A stretch of DNA of 31,251 bases from the IMG/VR virus record IMGVR_UViG_3300017917_004031, positions 1 through 31,251 of that record; one strand, given 5' to 3'. Source of the DNA: a virus. Below the pieces are notes generated by a model. That model searched no databases. It had not been told where the DNA came from and worked only from the letters and a program-made list of their open reading frames with translations. Shown one piece after another: positions 15,895-25,322 of the stretch. Positions within the stretch are counted from its first letter, which is position 1. Each line of letters begins with the position of its first letter. The position numbers and the translations under genes were made by a program.

Positions 15895-16588
15895 CGTAGT
15901 ATAATGATTTTTTATCAATATTAGATATTAGATATCCGTCTACACCCCAGTAAGATACATTACATCCCATAGTATAAAGTATATCTCCATCTATGGCTTC
16001 GCAAGTAGCATATCCATCTTCTACAGTATCAGGAATTATATCAAATTCTAATTCTTTTACTTCTCCACTTATAGTTTTTACAAGACAATCTACACTAGAT
16101 TTAGTATCCATTTTACTTAAAACCTCAATAATCTCAGGGTCTACTTCCTCTTCCCACTCATAATCATTCGGATTAAAATTTTCCTGTATCTTTTTAGCCA
16201 TAATTTTATTATAATCAGCCATACTCAATACGCGACCTTCAGATGATAATGATATAATATTTTCTGAAACATCATGTAAATCCATATCTGTTTTAGCATC
16301 TTCGCGAGCATACTCAAGCAAGCGGATAAATAAAGGTACATCCATTTTTATGACATCCCTAGGATTTTCTGCCTCTTTTATTGTTGATTTAGCCTTATCT
16401 ATACCTTTAGTTTTACTAATAGCTTTCTCAACAAACTTAATAGCTTCAGGAGTCTTAAACTCAATAGAAAATGTTTTATCTATTTTATTATCCTGAATAT
16501 CAAATGTATCCACAGCAATCCCAAATTTTTCAAGGCGATTTAGGAATGCTGCTTTATCTTCCGATTTAATTGTAAATTTCTTTCCCAT
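15881..16588 (-). CDS. 235-aa two-part phage protein
   Basis: The start at 16588 is chosen because its ATG overlaps the upstream stop (TAATG); a further ATG lies 12 nt earlier. Residues about 85-135 contain DVPLFIRLLEYAREDAKTD followed by LHDVSENIISLSSEGR, a helical block that looks like a small phage family seen as separate proteins. The C-terminal ~75 residues form another unit, with DCLVKTISGEVKELEFDII. It may be a fusion of two modules. Function is unknown. Confidence 0.7.
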   Translation of the reverse strand: MGKKFTIKSEDKAAFLNRLEKFGIAVDTFDIQDNKIDKTFSIEFKTPEAIKFVEKAISKTKGIDKAKSTIKEAENPRDVIKMDVPLFIRLLEYAREDAKTDMDLHDVSENIISLSSEGRVLSMADYNKIMAKKIQENFNPNDYEWEEEVDPEIIEVLSKMDTKSSVDCLVKTISGEVKELEFDIIPDTVEDGYATCEAIDGDILYTMGCNVSYWGVDGYLISNIDKKSLYYDVIN

Positions 16589-18555
16589 TATTTTACCCAA
16601 TTTTGGTCTTGTACTTCTTTATCTGCTTTTTGTAATAACGCTTGAACATCTTTACCTGCATTTTTAGCTGCTTCTAATCCTAAATCAAACAATGGGTGTT
16701 GACGAGCATTTTCAAATGGTGTCTCATTATCTTGATACATGGTTCCTCCACCTGTTATTTCACTATTCTCAGGATCATAGTCCCATTTTCTATTAGTTTT
16801 TCTATTGTTTTGGTTTTTCTCTGTTTGATAAGCATGACCTATTTTAATAATCAATGCCTCAGTCGGAGTCATAGGACGGCCAAATTTCAATGGTTGACTA
16901 CCAAAATAGTATTTAGTATCACCCATTGTTGAATCAACTTCAACTTCCTCATCACCCTGTGGAGTAGAAATAGTCACCTTTTTATTCGGAGTACCTTTAC
17001 CTACAACATATTCAGTTGCTTTAGAGTTAACGTTATATCCAAAACCAGCAGTATTTTCTTTAGTACATGAAACCATACCAGTTGCTAATATAGTACACAC
17101 TACACCAGCCATAATTTTATCTTTCAAACCTTCATCCATATTCTCTTCAGGTTTAATTTCACCTGTTTTATCTACAGACATATACGTGATGGTATTTGGT
17201 TTGGCTGTACCTTTACGTTTATCAACTAATTTAAAAGCACCAGGATGTACTTTGTCTATACCGACTTTAGCCAATTGAAGTTTCAATTGATCCATAATAT
17301 CATCTTCCTCGATTTGTTCTCTAAGAACATATTCTAATTCTTCACGAATTATTTGACGTATTTCTTTTATTTTCATATTTTCTCTAAAAGGATTTAATTT
17401 TTTAGGCTTGTAATCAGGAAATAATTTAGGTAACAATTCAGGACCTAATTTTCTACTATTTATTAATGAATAAAGCGAAGCATTTTTCTTAATAAGTTCA
17501 CCTACTGTTTTTATATCATTATTTTTTACATAATCAGTTACTTGCTCTATAAATTCTTCATCACTTAATTTTCTTTTATAGTTAGGAAATACTTGATAAA
17601 CAAGTCCGCGATTATGCATATTATTATATAATGAAATATTTTGTTTATAAAATTCACTTGGTGTTGTTATGTTATTGGTTTTTATATAATCTATTATATA
17701 TTTTACAAATTCTTCATCATCTTTAGGATACTTACGTTTAGACACCCTAGGAAATAACTCAGGAAATATTTCTTTATTGAGTTTTCTCTGGTATATTGCT
17801 GAGTATAATGGAGTGTTTTGTTTCTGTAATTCGCCTGGTGTTGTAATATCATTAATTCCTACATAATTAGTTACATATTTTATAAATTCTTCATCATCTT
17901 TAGGGTATTTGTATTTAGACCACCCAGGAAATGCGATAGAATATACTTGGTCTACCAATCCTCTATTATGTATAGTTTGATATAATGGGGTGTTTTGTTG
18001 TCTTAATTCACCTGGTATTTTTATATTATTATCTTTTACATAATCAACTACATATCTTACGAATGCTTCGTTATCTATAGGATATTGTGTGTTACTTTTA
18101 GTTCTTAAATTATCAGGAAATAATTCTTTTGATGTAAATAGTATCGATAATCCACGATTCCTTATTGTCTGGTATAACCCATTGTTTTGTTTCTGTAATT
18201 CGCCTACTGTTTTTATGTCATTATCCTCTATATAATTCTTAACATACTTTATAAATTCTTTAGTATTTACAGGGTATTTACTTCTAGAATAATCAGGAAA
18301 TATTTCGGCATAGACTTTATCAGCAAGTTTTCTATTTTGTATTGTTTGATACAATGGAATATTTTGTTGTCTTAATTCACCTGGTGTTTTAATATCATTA
18401 TCCTCTACATATTTCTTAATATATTCTATAAATTCATCATTATCCTTAGGATATTTTGCTTCATCTACAATACTATAAGAATCAGTATTTTCGTTTAATA
18501 ACCCAGCTAGTCTTAACATTCTACGAAATTCTTCACTTAAGATTTGTTTACTCAT
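16588..18555 (-). CDS. 655-aa six-repeat protein with N-terminal tag and internal lipobox-like segment
   Basis: Residues 1-22 form a leader, SEEFRRMLRLAGLLNE, ending in L-N-E. Six repeats of about 58 aa follow (roughly 35-93, 94-157, 158-216, 217-275, 276-329, 330-388), each with YPKDxEEFIKYV, NDIKTPGEL, a QN..LYQTI stretch and an NRGL...LFP close. The repeat's LY..I..RGL core resembles a small helical module next to phage homing-nuclease domains, which suggests nucleic-acid binding. A second tag-like helix begins at Met394 (MKIKEIRQIIREELEYVL). A hydrophobic stretch with ATGMVSC lies at 482-497. The protein looks like a fusion of a repeat array and a separate tagged protein. Function is unknown. 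Confidence 0.75.
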   Translation of the reverse strand: MSKQILSEEFRRMLRLAGLLNENTDSYSIVDEAKYPKDNDEFIEYIKKYVEDNDIKTPGELRQQNIPLYQTIQNRKLADKVYAEIFPDYSRSKYPVNTKEFIKYVKNYIEDNDIKTVGELQKQNNGLYQTIRNRGLSILFTSKELFPDNLRTKSNTQYPIDNEAFVRYVVDYVKDNNIKIPGELRQQNTPLYQTIHNRGLVDQVYSIAFPGWSKYKYPKDDEEFIKYVTNYVGINDITTPGELQKQNTPLYSAIYQRKLNKEIFPELFPRVSKRKYPKDDEEFVKYIIDYIKTNNITTPSEFYKQNISLYNNMHNRGLVYQVFPNYKRKLSDEEFIEQVTDYVKNNDIKTVGELIKKNASLYSLINSRKLGPELLPKLFPDYKPKKLNPFRENMKIKEIRQIIREELEYVLREQIEEDDIMDQLKLQLAKVGIDKVHPGAFKLVDKRKGTAKPNTITYMSVDKTGEIKPEENMDEGLKDKIMAGVVCTILATGMVSCTKENTAGFGYNVNSKATEYVVGKGTPNKKVTISTPQGDEEVEVDSTMGDTKYYFGSQPLKFGRPMTPTEALIIKIGHAYQTEKNQNNRKTNRKWDYDPENSEITGGGTMYQDNETPFENARQHPLFDLGLEAAKNAGKDVQALLQKADKEVQDQNWVK

Positions 18556-18637
18556 ATCAATAAATATTGGTAAGGCAAGGAAACCTTCTTACATTTACAC
18601 CTACGTTAAATAAAATAATAAGTATATACAAATATAT

Positions 18638-18834
18638 AGTCAGGTGGCGGAATAGCTATTTCAACCCCGCGTCGTCGGGATAATAGATACGGTTCGAGTC
18701 CGTTGTGGGGTCAATGAGTAGCTTTGGTAGACGCTAAAAAACTGCAATGAGGTATGTCCAATCCTCACATTAAATAAAAAGGGTATCAACGCAGGAGTGC
18801 GGAAGCGATGCAGGTTCGAGTCCTGTCCTGACTA
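18638..18834 (+). tRNA. tRNA-Leu-like element expanded by internal insertions
   Basis: AGTCAGG (18638-18644) pairs perfectly with CCTGACT (18827-18833), preceded by a T-arm GCAGG-TTCGAGT-CCTGT. After the 5' acceptor strand comes TGGCGGAAT, and at 18724-18734 TTGGTAGACGC; together these are the two halves of a bacterial tRNA-Leu D-arm. They are separated by a 70-nt hairpin. A further ~45 nt hairpin-bearing stretch lies between CTGC (18742-18745) and GCAG (18791-18794), the possible anticodon stem. At ~197 nt it is far longer than a tRNA, so it may be intron-bearing, mosaic or non-functional. Confidence 0.5.
18664..18711 (+). tRNA. Nested tRNA-like element (acceptor plus T-arm only)
   Basis: ACCCCGC (18664-18670) can pair with GTGGGGT (18705-18711), closing a T-arm-like hairpin ACGG-TTCGAGT-CCGT. 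Only 17 nt lie between, too few for D and anticodon arms. It lies wholly inside the larger tRNA-Leu-like element, within a longer imperfect hairpin (18654-18723). It may be a decayed tRNA or a tRNA-mimicking insert. Confidence 0.35.
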
Positions 18835-18840
18835 CAATAT

Positions 18841-18960
18841 GGTTCCTGAGATGAAGGTCATGTGCTGCGCTAACGGTATATGTCTTGAACTCCAGCATAG
18901 TGGTTTGCGATTGGGTTTAGCGACCCGATGGAAAGATGGGTTCGAGACCCATAGGAATCA
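18841..18960 (+). tRNA. tRNA-like element with extra internal sequence
   Basis: GGTTCCT (18841-18847) pairs with AGGAATC (18953-18959), next to a perfect T-arm ATGGG-TTCGAGA-CCCAT. A D-arm-like GCA-TAGTGGTT-TGC lies at 18895-18908 and a 7-bp hairpin with a 6-nt loop at 18910-18929. About 45 nt between acceptor and D-arm are unexplained. No standard 7-nt anticodon loop can be placed, so no isotype is assigned. Confidence 0.5.
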
Positions 18961-18969
18961 CACAGATAT

Positions 18970-18988
18970 AAGTATATACTTTTGTCGA
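18970..18988. repeat. Palindrome AAGTATATACTT followed by TTGTCGA
   Basis: A perfect 12-bp palindrome abuts TTGTCGA. A second palindrome plus TTGTCGA lies at 19078-19097, suggesting paired protein-binding sites. Confidence 0.4.
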
Positions 18989-19077
18989 CATAAAAGATCT
19001 GTTTAAAAGAGTTCTTTGACATCTTGCAATTTATCCCAAAAGGGGTTAAACCGAAAATGCGACCACAAGAGTTGGGG

Positions 19078-19097
19078 ATATACGTATATATTGTCGA
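19078..19097. repeat. Palindrome ATATACGTATAT followed by TTGTCGA
   Basis: This is the second palindrome/TTGTCGA unit, with one extra nucleotide between the palindrome and TTGTCGA. It lies between the tRNA-like cluster and the GC-rich island. Confidence 0.4.
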
Positions 19098-19150
19098 TGG
19101 GCGAGAGATGCGTGCGAGTTGTGAATACGTCACATTCGCTTTTGTACCAA

Positions 19151-19260
19151 ACGCGGCGCGCGCATGGACCGCAATTAGCATGGGGCCGTTCCGCTGTCAT
19201 TCCGCCGGCGGGCCGCTAGCGCCCGCAAAAGCTAGTCCCTTTTTTCAGACCGCCGGCTAG
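19151..19260 (+). other. GC-rich structured island, possible ncRNA or origin-like element
   Basis: About 73 of 110 bases are G or C, in a strongly AT-rich genome. CCGGCGG (19205-19211) pairs with CCGCCGG (19250-19256). Inside, GCGGGC/GCCCGC and CTAGC/GCTAG offer alternative stems, and a T6 run follows at 19240-19245. Several overlapping frames are open only because stops are rare in GC-rich DNA. The strand is uncertain. Confidence 0.45.
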
Positions 19261-23801: not shown

Positions 23802-24110
23802 TTACCAAATTTCTATACCTAATTCGTCTAGTTTTTCTATAAAATCTCTTATCTTCTCATCATCCTCATCATCAAAATTACCCTGATAAGCATCTTTCCC
23901 AGTGATGTCGGATAATACATCTAGCCATTCCTCTGAGCCTCCCTCAATCTCTTTACCTCCCATGGACTCAAAATAGTCTTCATCAATACCGTTTCGTCTT
24001 AAAACATCCATTACCTCTTGCTTGAGTATATCTTCTTTAGTCTGGATTTTAACTTCGTTGATACCGGCTAGTTCTTGTAAGCGCTTTGCTTCGTTTATTA
24101 ATTGTGTCAT
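23802..24110 (-). CDS. 102-aa tagged acidic protein (INEAKRLQELAGINE leader)
   Basis: Residues 4-18 are INEAKRLQELAGINE, an amphipathic helix ending in I-N-E, followed by VKIQ. The rest is acidic and helical (EDILKQEVMDVLRRNGIDED; then GNFDDEDDEKIRDFIEKLDE). The leader is nearly identical in the next gene although the remainders do not align. In T4, an N-terminal helix directs internal proteins into the prohead and gp21 cuts after (L/I)xE. The product may therefore be a capsid-internal, ejected protein. Confidence 0.75.
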   Translation of the reverse strand: MTQLINEAKRLQELAGINEVKIQTKEDILKQEVMDVLRRNGIDEDYFESMGGKEIEGGSEEWLDVLSDITGKDAYQGNFDDEDDEKIRDFIEKLDELGIEIW

Positions 24111-24121
24111 TGTAAAAATTA

Positions 24122-24484
24122 TTAAATATTATATGAAATACCATAAACAGATTTTCCGGCTATGGTTAATTTAAAATTAGTAGCGTCACCATATGTGTCT
24201 TTAACTTTTTTAGGGTTAAAAGAAAAATCCAACCCGCCTTCACCTAAACCAGCTATTTCTTGATCCTCATACCCATCCTCATCAGCAGCCATTTCTATCT
24301 GTTGTTCGCTATAGTATTCCATATCATTCTCATCCCAATTAAATTCAACAGCTAGTTGGTTCAAAAGTTCTTGCTTGTTTTGTTTAAGAAAATTAATAAT
24401 ACCCGTACCTGAAGGTTGAATTTTAACTTCATTGATACCTGCTAGTTCCTGCAGACGTTTTGCTTCGTTTATTAGTTTTGTCAT
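24122..24484 (-). CDS. 120-aa tagged protein (INEAKRLQELAGINE leader)
   Basis: It shares residues 4-22 with the 102-aa neighbour. After VKIQPSGTG comes a helical part (LKQNKQELLNQLAVEFNW), an acidic middle (AADEDGYEDQEIAGLGEGG) and a short beta-like C-terminus (NFKLTIAGKSVYGISYNI). It ends 11 nt before the next tagged gene, so both are transcribed from the 80-bp cassette. No family is recognised beyond the leader. Confidence 0.75.
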   Translation of the reverse strand: MTKLINEAKRLQELAGINEVKIQPSGTGIINFLKQNKQELLNQLAVEFNWDENDMEYYSEQQIEMAADEDGYEDQEIAGLGEGGLDFSFNPKKVKDTYGDATNFKLTIAGKSVYGISYNI

Positions 24485-24560
24485 GGTAAAAAATTTTAGA
24501 TAAATATACGAAAAAAATCGCCTACAAACAAAAAAGTCTGCAGGCGATCTAGTAAAAAGC
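24481..24560 (-). repeat. 80-bp duplicated regulatory cassette, copy 2
   Basis: Same 80 bases as 23356-23435, placed before the tagged gene at 24122-24484. It ends in the terminator of the next gene. Confidence 0.9.
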
Positions 24561-24578
24561 GCTCGTAGTGAGCGCTTT
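24556..24578 (-). terminator. Terminator of the third tagged gene
   Basis: AAAGCGCTC/GAGCGCTTT, 9 bp with a 5-nt loop and a T-run on the coding strand. Confidence 0.85.
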
Positions 24579-24591
24579 GTATTATTTTTTA

Positions 24592-24954
24592 TTATACTCC
24601 TGCTTTAGAATAAATATCAGGATCAGATAATGAAATCCAATTTAAATATGCATATCCTTCTGGGTCATAATCAGATACACTATAGCTCCATCTTACCCAC
24701 TCTTCTTTACTTATAGATTGTCCTGGTTTAAATGTTGATTTGAATGAATCAAGATGTTTTTCATCTTCATAACTATCTACTACATCTAATAATTCCTCAT
24801 ATGAATATTCATTTGGGGATTGATCAAAAGCTTGATCAATTTCATCTTTTTCACCCATGTCATAATCTCCATTATCTTCTTGATTTTCGTTAAGCGATCT
24901 AATACCTGCTAATTCCTGGAAGCGCTTAGCTTCGTTTATTAATTGTTTTTTCAT
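24592..24954 (-). CDS. 120-aa tagged acidic protein (INEAKRFQELAGI...LNE leader)
   Basis: The start is ATG 24954 (MKKQLINEAKRFQELAGI); a longer frame upstream reads non-coding DNA. The leader ends with RSLNE, again a T4-protease-like L-N-E. The mature part is acidic (DYDMGEKDEIDQAFDQ, then EELLDVVDSYEDEK) with a Trp/Tyr-rich C-terminus (WVRWSYSVSDYDPEGYAY). Three tagged genes in a row with different bodies suggest a leader spread by duplication and recombination. Confidence 0.75.
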   Translation of the reverse strand: MKKQLINEAKRFQELAGIRSLNENQEDNGDYDMGEKDEIDQAFDQSPNEYSYEELLDVVDSYEDEKHLDSFKSTFKPGQSISKEEWVRWSYSVSDYDPEGYAYLNWISLSDPDIYSKAGV

Positions 24955-24975
24955 GTTTAAATAAATAAATTTGTG

Positions 24976-24984
24976 TATAAATAT
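24976..24984 (-). promoter_or_regulatory. ATATTTATA promoter-like core before the third tagged gene
   Basis: TATAAATAT on the plus strand lies about 21 nt upstream of the ATG at 24954: the virion-gene core rather than the accessory promoter, which fits late expression of a packaged protein. Confidence 0.45.
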
Positions 24985-25322
24985 AGTAAAAAGAATAATG
25001 CCTACCACATCAAAAAAAAATATAAAAAAACATTGGCTACAAGATACGAACAAAAGCTGTGCCGAGCACAAAGATAACCTGCACAAAAATGCTAGGTCTT
25101 CCAAAGGAATGTTTGTATATTATGTCTTATCTCAGTTTTACACTCCTGCTGAGCCATTACGTGTTTGGATTCATTTTCTGGATTCCCACAGATACAAATT
25201 TTGTTTGTTCATTTTGGTTATAACTGTTTGCGGTGCTACAAAGGGCTGTGCTACTAAGTTGGGTAACTCACGGGCTACCAATCGAATTTGCTACTTGAAC
25301 GACAATACATATGTAAAAAGAA
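24985..25322. other. Unassigned 338-bp gap with GTAGC-type repeats
   Basis: No minus-strand frame of useful length is present. The minus strand holds repeated GTAGC/GTAGCAC words at 25228-25295, and a TGTGC/GCACA hairpin near 25057-25069 with GGCACAG then TATCTTGTAG at accessory-promoter spacing. A plus-strand frame of 128 codons exists but runs through the opposing terminator and is not accepted. A leader RNA or ncRNA is possible. Confidence 0.4.

Follow-up and report, generated by a model that had tools for sequence, protein, structure and literature searches.

What is encoded by a stretch of tRNA-like sequence that has no normal anticodon arm and lies opposite to the phage genes around it? 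The window, the whole stretch of DNA analysed here (31,251 nucleotides), is a 31-kb piece of a phage from IMG/VR and encodes baseplate wedge proteins. A first-pass annotation, made from the letters alone, described positions 18638-18960 as tRNA-like elements with canonical T-arms and no normal anticodon arms on the strand opposite to the genes, and both parts of this description hold. Three units of acceptor stem plus T-arm are present: T1, a unit nested inside it, and T3. T1 and T3 are on the plus strand and the flanking genes are on the minus strand. With a strict detector, none of 2000 dinucleotide shuffles of the region yields any acceptor plus T-arm unit; with a relaxed detector, six of 2000 yield one unit and none yields two, against the real count of three. 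The features are as follows.

18638-18834, plus strand: T1, predicted non-decoding tRNA-Leu-like element; acceptor AGTCAGG/CCTGACT with 7 of 7 Watson-Crick pairs, discriminator A
18638-18644 and 18827-18833, plus strand: T1 acceptor strands AGTCAGG and CCTGACT, with A73 at 18834
18646-18734, plus strand: T1 D-arm of tRNA-Leu type, G-GCG-GAA ... TTGGTAGA-CGC; the same D-arm occurs across the family
18647-18649 and 18732-18734, plus strand: T1 D-stem GCG/CGC, interrupted by the 70-nt hairpin
18654-18723, plus strand: 70-nt D-loop hairpin module, closing stem AGCTA/TAGCT
18664-18711, plus strand: nested miniature top half in the D-loop module, an acceptor-like stem plus T-arm
18664-18670 and 18705-18711, plus strand: nested acceptor-like stem ACCCCGC/GTGGGGT
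18688-18704, plus strand: nested T-arm TACGG-TTCGAGT-CCGTT, T-stem with one T-T mismatch
18735-18809, plus strand: T1 head, standing where the anticodon and variable arms would be; hairpin TGAGG/CCTCA, U48 at 18809
18810-18826, plus strand: T1 T-arm GCAGG-TTCGAGT-CCTGT, 5-bp T-stem
18841-18960, plus strand: T3, second tRNA-like element, without a Leu-type D-arm or a normal anticodon arm
18841-18847 and 18953-18959, plus strand: T3 acceptor GGTTCCT/AGGAATC
18936-18952, plus strand: T3 T-arm ATGGG-TTCGAGA-CCCAT

A 7-bp acceptor and a 5-bp T-arm with a TTCRANN loop are present in outer T1 and in T3. ARAGORN and Rfam recognised no tRNA within the window. The window elements have no match to the Rfam tRNA model (RF00005), and several relatives score 30-49 bits against the cut-off of 29; acceptance of some elements by this model is expected because three arms are intact.

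The hairpin in the T1 D-loop had been described as flanked by TAGCT on both sides; the motif is there, but as the hairpin's own closing stem (AGCTA/TAGCT). Comparison with uninterrupted relatives had been proposed as a check. The T1 head is 79% identical to a head at L421 1248-1317, with a hairpin change that is compensated, and the L421 element has this similar head and lacks the D-loop insert. The insert of L409 has the same architecture (closing stem, CCCC acceptor-like stem, T-arm-like hairpin) with re-paired stems. Because L421 carries the same head without the insert and L409 carries an equivalent, re-paired insert, we predict that the 70-nt D-loop insert of T1 is an optional structured module. 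Other family elements also have D-loop inserts at that site, several of them plain hairpins, and one head family includes members both with and without an insert on the same head. Of 256 elements, 9 have a nested or extra T-arm (0.6 expected). The idea of nested mobile inserts is supported as to a nested, optional structured module, and mobility of that module itself stays hypothetical.

The window elements are unlikely to stem from an assembly error because the independent contigs L421, L409, L142 and L132 share their features. Misassembly and relatives without conserved pairing had been named as the findings that would speak against the elements; independent contigs and re-paired stems were found instead. 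T3 has a homologue in L142, again directly after an AGTCAGG-type element, and its T-arm recurs in L132/G008 with a different core and acceptor. T3 appears tied to the AGTCAGG family by its ends, its position and one homologue, without the Leu-type D-arm.

Viral contigs were scanned for the T-arm/acceptor end, for the D-arm pattern and for a second T-arm variant, which gave several hundred loci at least. There are at least 364 distinct AGTCAGG/CCTGACT elements in at least about 200 viral loci, with lengths of 53-197 nt (median about 104 in the first set). Two of the scans selected on the common T-arm and acceptor, so conservation there is partly by selection; the D-arm scan is free of that, and it found relatives with unrelated, fully paired acceptors (AACACAG/CTGTGTT, GGAGAAG/CTTCTCC, AGTCCTG/CAGGACT, GATTGAG/CTCAATC, TACCAGG/CCTGGTA and GGCAAAG/CTTTGCC). 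Compensated single changes are also seen in acceptors. The 171-kb relative G008 contains 36 units of T-arm plus 7-bp acceptor, against 1.3 in shuffles, and has 9 AGTCAGG elements beside 25 tRNAs called by ARAGORN. Arrays hold up to 8 elements, and neighbours are on the same strand in 87 cases and on opposite strands in none. Several of the phages carry nearly complete tRNA sets. A search of the cultured phages in INPHARED gave one weak match only, and in 84,980 bacterial genomes six contigs match, all of them in metagenome bins from unrelated phyla.

An anticodon arm (5-bp stem and 7-nt loop right after the D-arm) could be formed by 4 of 135 elements, one of them with U33, and by 2 when shuffled, against 196 of 265 ordinary tRNAs at the same loci, all with U33. 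In a hold-out set of 91 new centres the counts were 3 of 66 elements (U33 in one) and 89 of 111 ordinary tRNAs. The residues of the tRNA elbow are kept in the AGTCAGG family: U8 in 162/165, A14 in 134/137, A15 in 131/137, the A15-U48 combination in 121/137, the D-loop GG in 164/165 and the 49-65 pair in 165/165. These elbow features of decoding tRNAs (D-arm GG, U8, A14, 15-48) are a finding on the AGTCAGG family, which does not extend to T3. Upstream of the elements T-1 occurs in 83% (68% in ordinary tRNAs) and A-4 in 69% (73%), and C74 follows the discriminator in 99%, against 98% of the ordinary tRNAs of these loci. The matching leader and trailer suggest selection for the same end processing as in ordinary tRNAs.

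We predict that T1 belongs to a family of phage RNAs that do not decode and have a tRNA-Leu-type frame, which agrees with the "tRNA-mimics" proposed in the first-pass annotation. The frame retains the acceptor stem, T-arm, D-arm, elbow-locking residues and tRNA-precursor flanks and has given up the anticodon arm, with one of very many different folded heads set between D-arm and T-arm.

The heads are diverse. Clustering by centre divides the first 184 elements into 165 groups; 134 of 366 elements group in 53 head families, and most heads are singletons. A helix that ends exactly two bases before the T-stem, the place of the variable arm, is enriched, at 34/91 against 9.9 expected. In the head family H1, of which there are six sequences only, 7 of 8 helix pairs are altered on both sides and paired in every sequence; over the whole structure of these six, 12 pairs are changed on both sides against 3.7 in shuffles (0/500). 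The H2 head keeps about 40 nearly invariant bases across 20 contigs while the scaffold drifts, and H3 is a third head family. Because compensatory change is strong, we predict that the heads of the families seen (at least H1, H2 and H3) are functional, selected RNA structures, neither filler nor decay. Neutral filler is ruled out for the head families with compensatory change.

A target was sought for the heads and none was found. Antisense pairing of heads with phage DNA of the analysed set showed no clear excess over shuffles, and the top matches seem to be relatives of these elements that had escaped detection. No known RNA family was convincingly found within the heads by Rfam. Mimicry of rRNA was considered and set aside, with a single notable match: a D-loop insert at G008:97340-97511 and in L121/L128 holds TTAGTAGTGGCGAGCGAA, an exact match to 18 nt of conserved 23S rRNA, where the best rRNA match in shuffles is 14 nt.

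It is probable that the family is a selected, non-decoding, modular family of tRNA-like RNAs. Its transcripts would be cut by host RNase P and 3' tRNA-processing enzymes, after which CCA would be added, and the processed RNA would be protected by the stable tRNA-like elbow into which it folds. Less certainly, the released RNA may act in trans through its head, which would bind a host protein or RNA or one belonging to a rival element. Structured small RNAs that are processed like tRNAs and act in trans are the predicted mode of action that we favour. A tentative first guess is that the head serves as a decoy or ligand in a tRNA-centred conflict between phage and host; the nearly complete phage tRNA sets fit the conflicts of this kind that have been described in T5 and T6. 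A broader proposal, to which we give somewhat less than an even chance, is an RNA repertoire in which one host-processed tRNA-like chassis displays many fast-replaced heads, each aimed at a host or rival target of its own, with array contents exchanged among close relatives.

The main rival, which we regard as unlikely, is that the elements punctuate operons: RNase P and a 3' enzyme would cut the tRNA-like top half and free neighbouring mRNAs with short leaders, and the head would be filler or a stabiliser. It is the main rival because half of the elements have a start codon shortly downstream. For 164 of 319 elements an ORF of 30 aa or more has its ATG within the next 60 nt, mostly at 10-19 nt, and the same placement is found for 210 of 686 ordinary tRNAs and 229 of 980 random places. 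The genes downstream are of diverse kinds, with terminase-like proteins among them, and the tRNA-type leader and trailer would serve such cutting equally. Conserved, covarying heads should nevertheless be unnecessary for punctuation, and ordinary tRNAs would also punctuate. In the window the elements run antisense to the genes on either side and no ORF start follows closely, so these copies can hardly punctuate those genes. The heads favour a role in trans and the positions a role in cis; both may hold.

Turnover of the elements raises another explanation. Compared with G008, the window has a 96% identical flank as far as the T1 D-arm, and similarity resumes in the T3 T-arm; in between everything differs, and G008 carries a pair of AGTCAGG elements together with a small ORF and a GGCTGGT element. 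The flanks of L002 are 77% and 84% identical to those of the window, and similarity between the centres does not exceed that of shuffled sequence. The simplest reading of this pattern would be cassette exchange via the conserved ends. It could be taken further, to ends that are mainly sites of swapping or integration and an RNA that itself has little function, since the similarity breaks and returns within tRNA-like arms around differing cassettes and the L002 centres are at shuffle level between recognisable flanks. We consider this improbable: the compensated acceptors and heads, the elbow residues and the processing signature require RNA function, and no integrase or attachment duplication was seen.

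Decay of tRNA genes into pseudogenes would account for the absent anticodon arm and for a D-arm derived from tRNA-Leu, but it is very improbable, with acceptor, elbow and T-arm intact in hundreds of copies, heads that covary and near-complete sets of intact tRNAs adjoining the elements; compensatory change contradicts it directly. Intron-bearing decoding tRNAs, also raised in the first-pass annotation, can practically be dismissed: inserts do lie in the D-loop and anticodon region, and anticodon-stem pairing across the insert is possible in slightly more elements than in shuffles (14 of 201 against 4.0), yet joining the exon ends of T1 forms no such stem at any spacing tried, most of the family cannot form one, and Rfam detects no intron.

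The surroundings of the elements have features of their own. The direct repeat ATAAGTATATAC lies at 18618-18629, just before T1, and at 18968-18979, just after T3; it possibly represents promoters or an exchange boundary. A noncoding element at 18961-19260 is shared by at least 29 related viral contigs, where it occupies the corresponding site between minus-strand genes. It contains the motif GTATATAC twice, a boxA-like GTTCTTTGACA and repeats of an iteron-like type, CCGCTATC. Because RNA structure and covariation in it are weak, it is more probably a DNA element (an origin, packaging site or promoter) than an RNA. The tRNA-like elements adjoin it only in the window, L002 and L132/G008. A 655-aa protein at 16588-18555 is made up of repeats, and adjacent small proteins encoded at 23802-25104 on the minus strand have the N-terminal segment LINEAKRLQELAGI or close variants in common.

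If a selected family of non-decoding tRNA-like RNAs is the right reading, hundreds of phage genes that have been ignored or misread as broken tRNAs form a distinct class of structured RNA. Nature would then employ a non-decoding tRNA body as a stable chassis on which RNA domains change, much as tRNA scaffolds serve engineers, and concrete RNA domains would be available for testing against host defences that target tRNA. The RNA repertoire, if true, would be the RNA counterpart of an anti-defence island.

The family is apparently undescribed, and word searches of the open PMC literature, with subscription journals mostly outside their scope, found no description of it. As a system, a modular RNA family that is hypervariable and built on a tRNA chassis would be new; the chassis itself is plainly tRNA-derived, and a stricter view could count the family as a variation on tRNA-like RNAs. 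Decoding tRNAs are rejected by the near-absence of an anticodon arm with a 7-nt loop and U33. The tmRNA has a tRNA acceptor and T-arm with a large domain replacing the anticodon arm, as do these elements, but the alanine-identity G3-U70 pair occurs in only 1 of 191 of them and they retain a full D-arm; ARAGORN found no tag ORF, and the best Rfam tmRNA match has an E-value of 3.4.

The YrlA or Y RNA-like RNAs (RF02553) are likewise non-decoding tRNA mimics of bacteria and phages. They are permuted, with the T-arm before the D-arm inside a closing, Ro-binding stem, whereas these elements have the D-arm before the T-arm and the acceptor at their ends. Ro60 was rejected as a partner because no more than 2 of 19 records have a TROVE gene. 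These TROVE/Ro60-like genes are at G008:50735-50950 (L511), inside the G008 tRNA cluster at 45985-53724, and at G042:311318-312007 (L510, L512), where matches to the Y-RNA-like model lie about 1 kb downstream. Separately, L129:1736-1840 has a sub-threshold YrlA match (41.5 bits) to this permuted tRNA-like RNA, with a T-arm then a D-arm enclosed by the stem GTGGACGT/ACGTCCAC.

Irregular allo-tRNA-like polycistrons from soil metagenomes (Mukai 2017, as cited in PMC7609411) also form arrays, some with extra arms, and have been suggested to be non-translating. Those genes have 8/4 or 9/3 acceptor branches and anticodons, whereas the elements here have 7/5 branches and no anticodon arm. GOLLD and ROOL, too, are structured RNAs of phages with no known function, found close to tRNA islands (PMC12286853); they are much larger, their structures are unrelated, and these elements have no Rfam match to either. 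Phage tRNAs counter tRNA-targeting defences in T5 and T6, with supply or decoy roles proposed (PMC11555353, PMC13096335). Those tRNAs decode, whereas the elements of this family are predicted to be unable to do so and carry changing heads.
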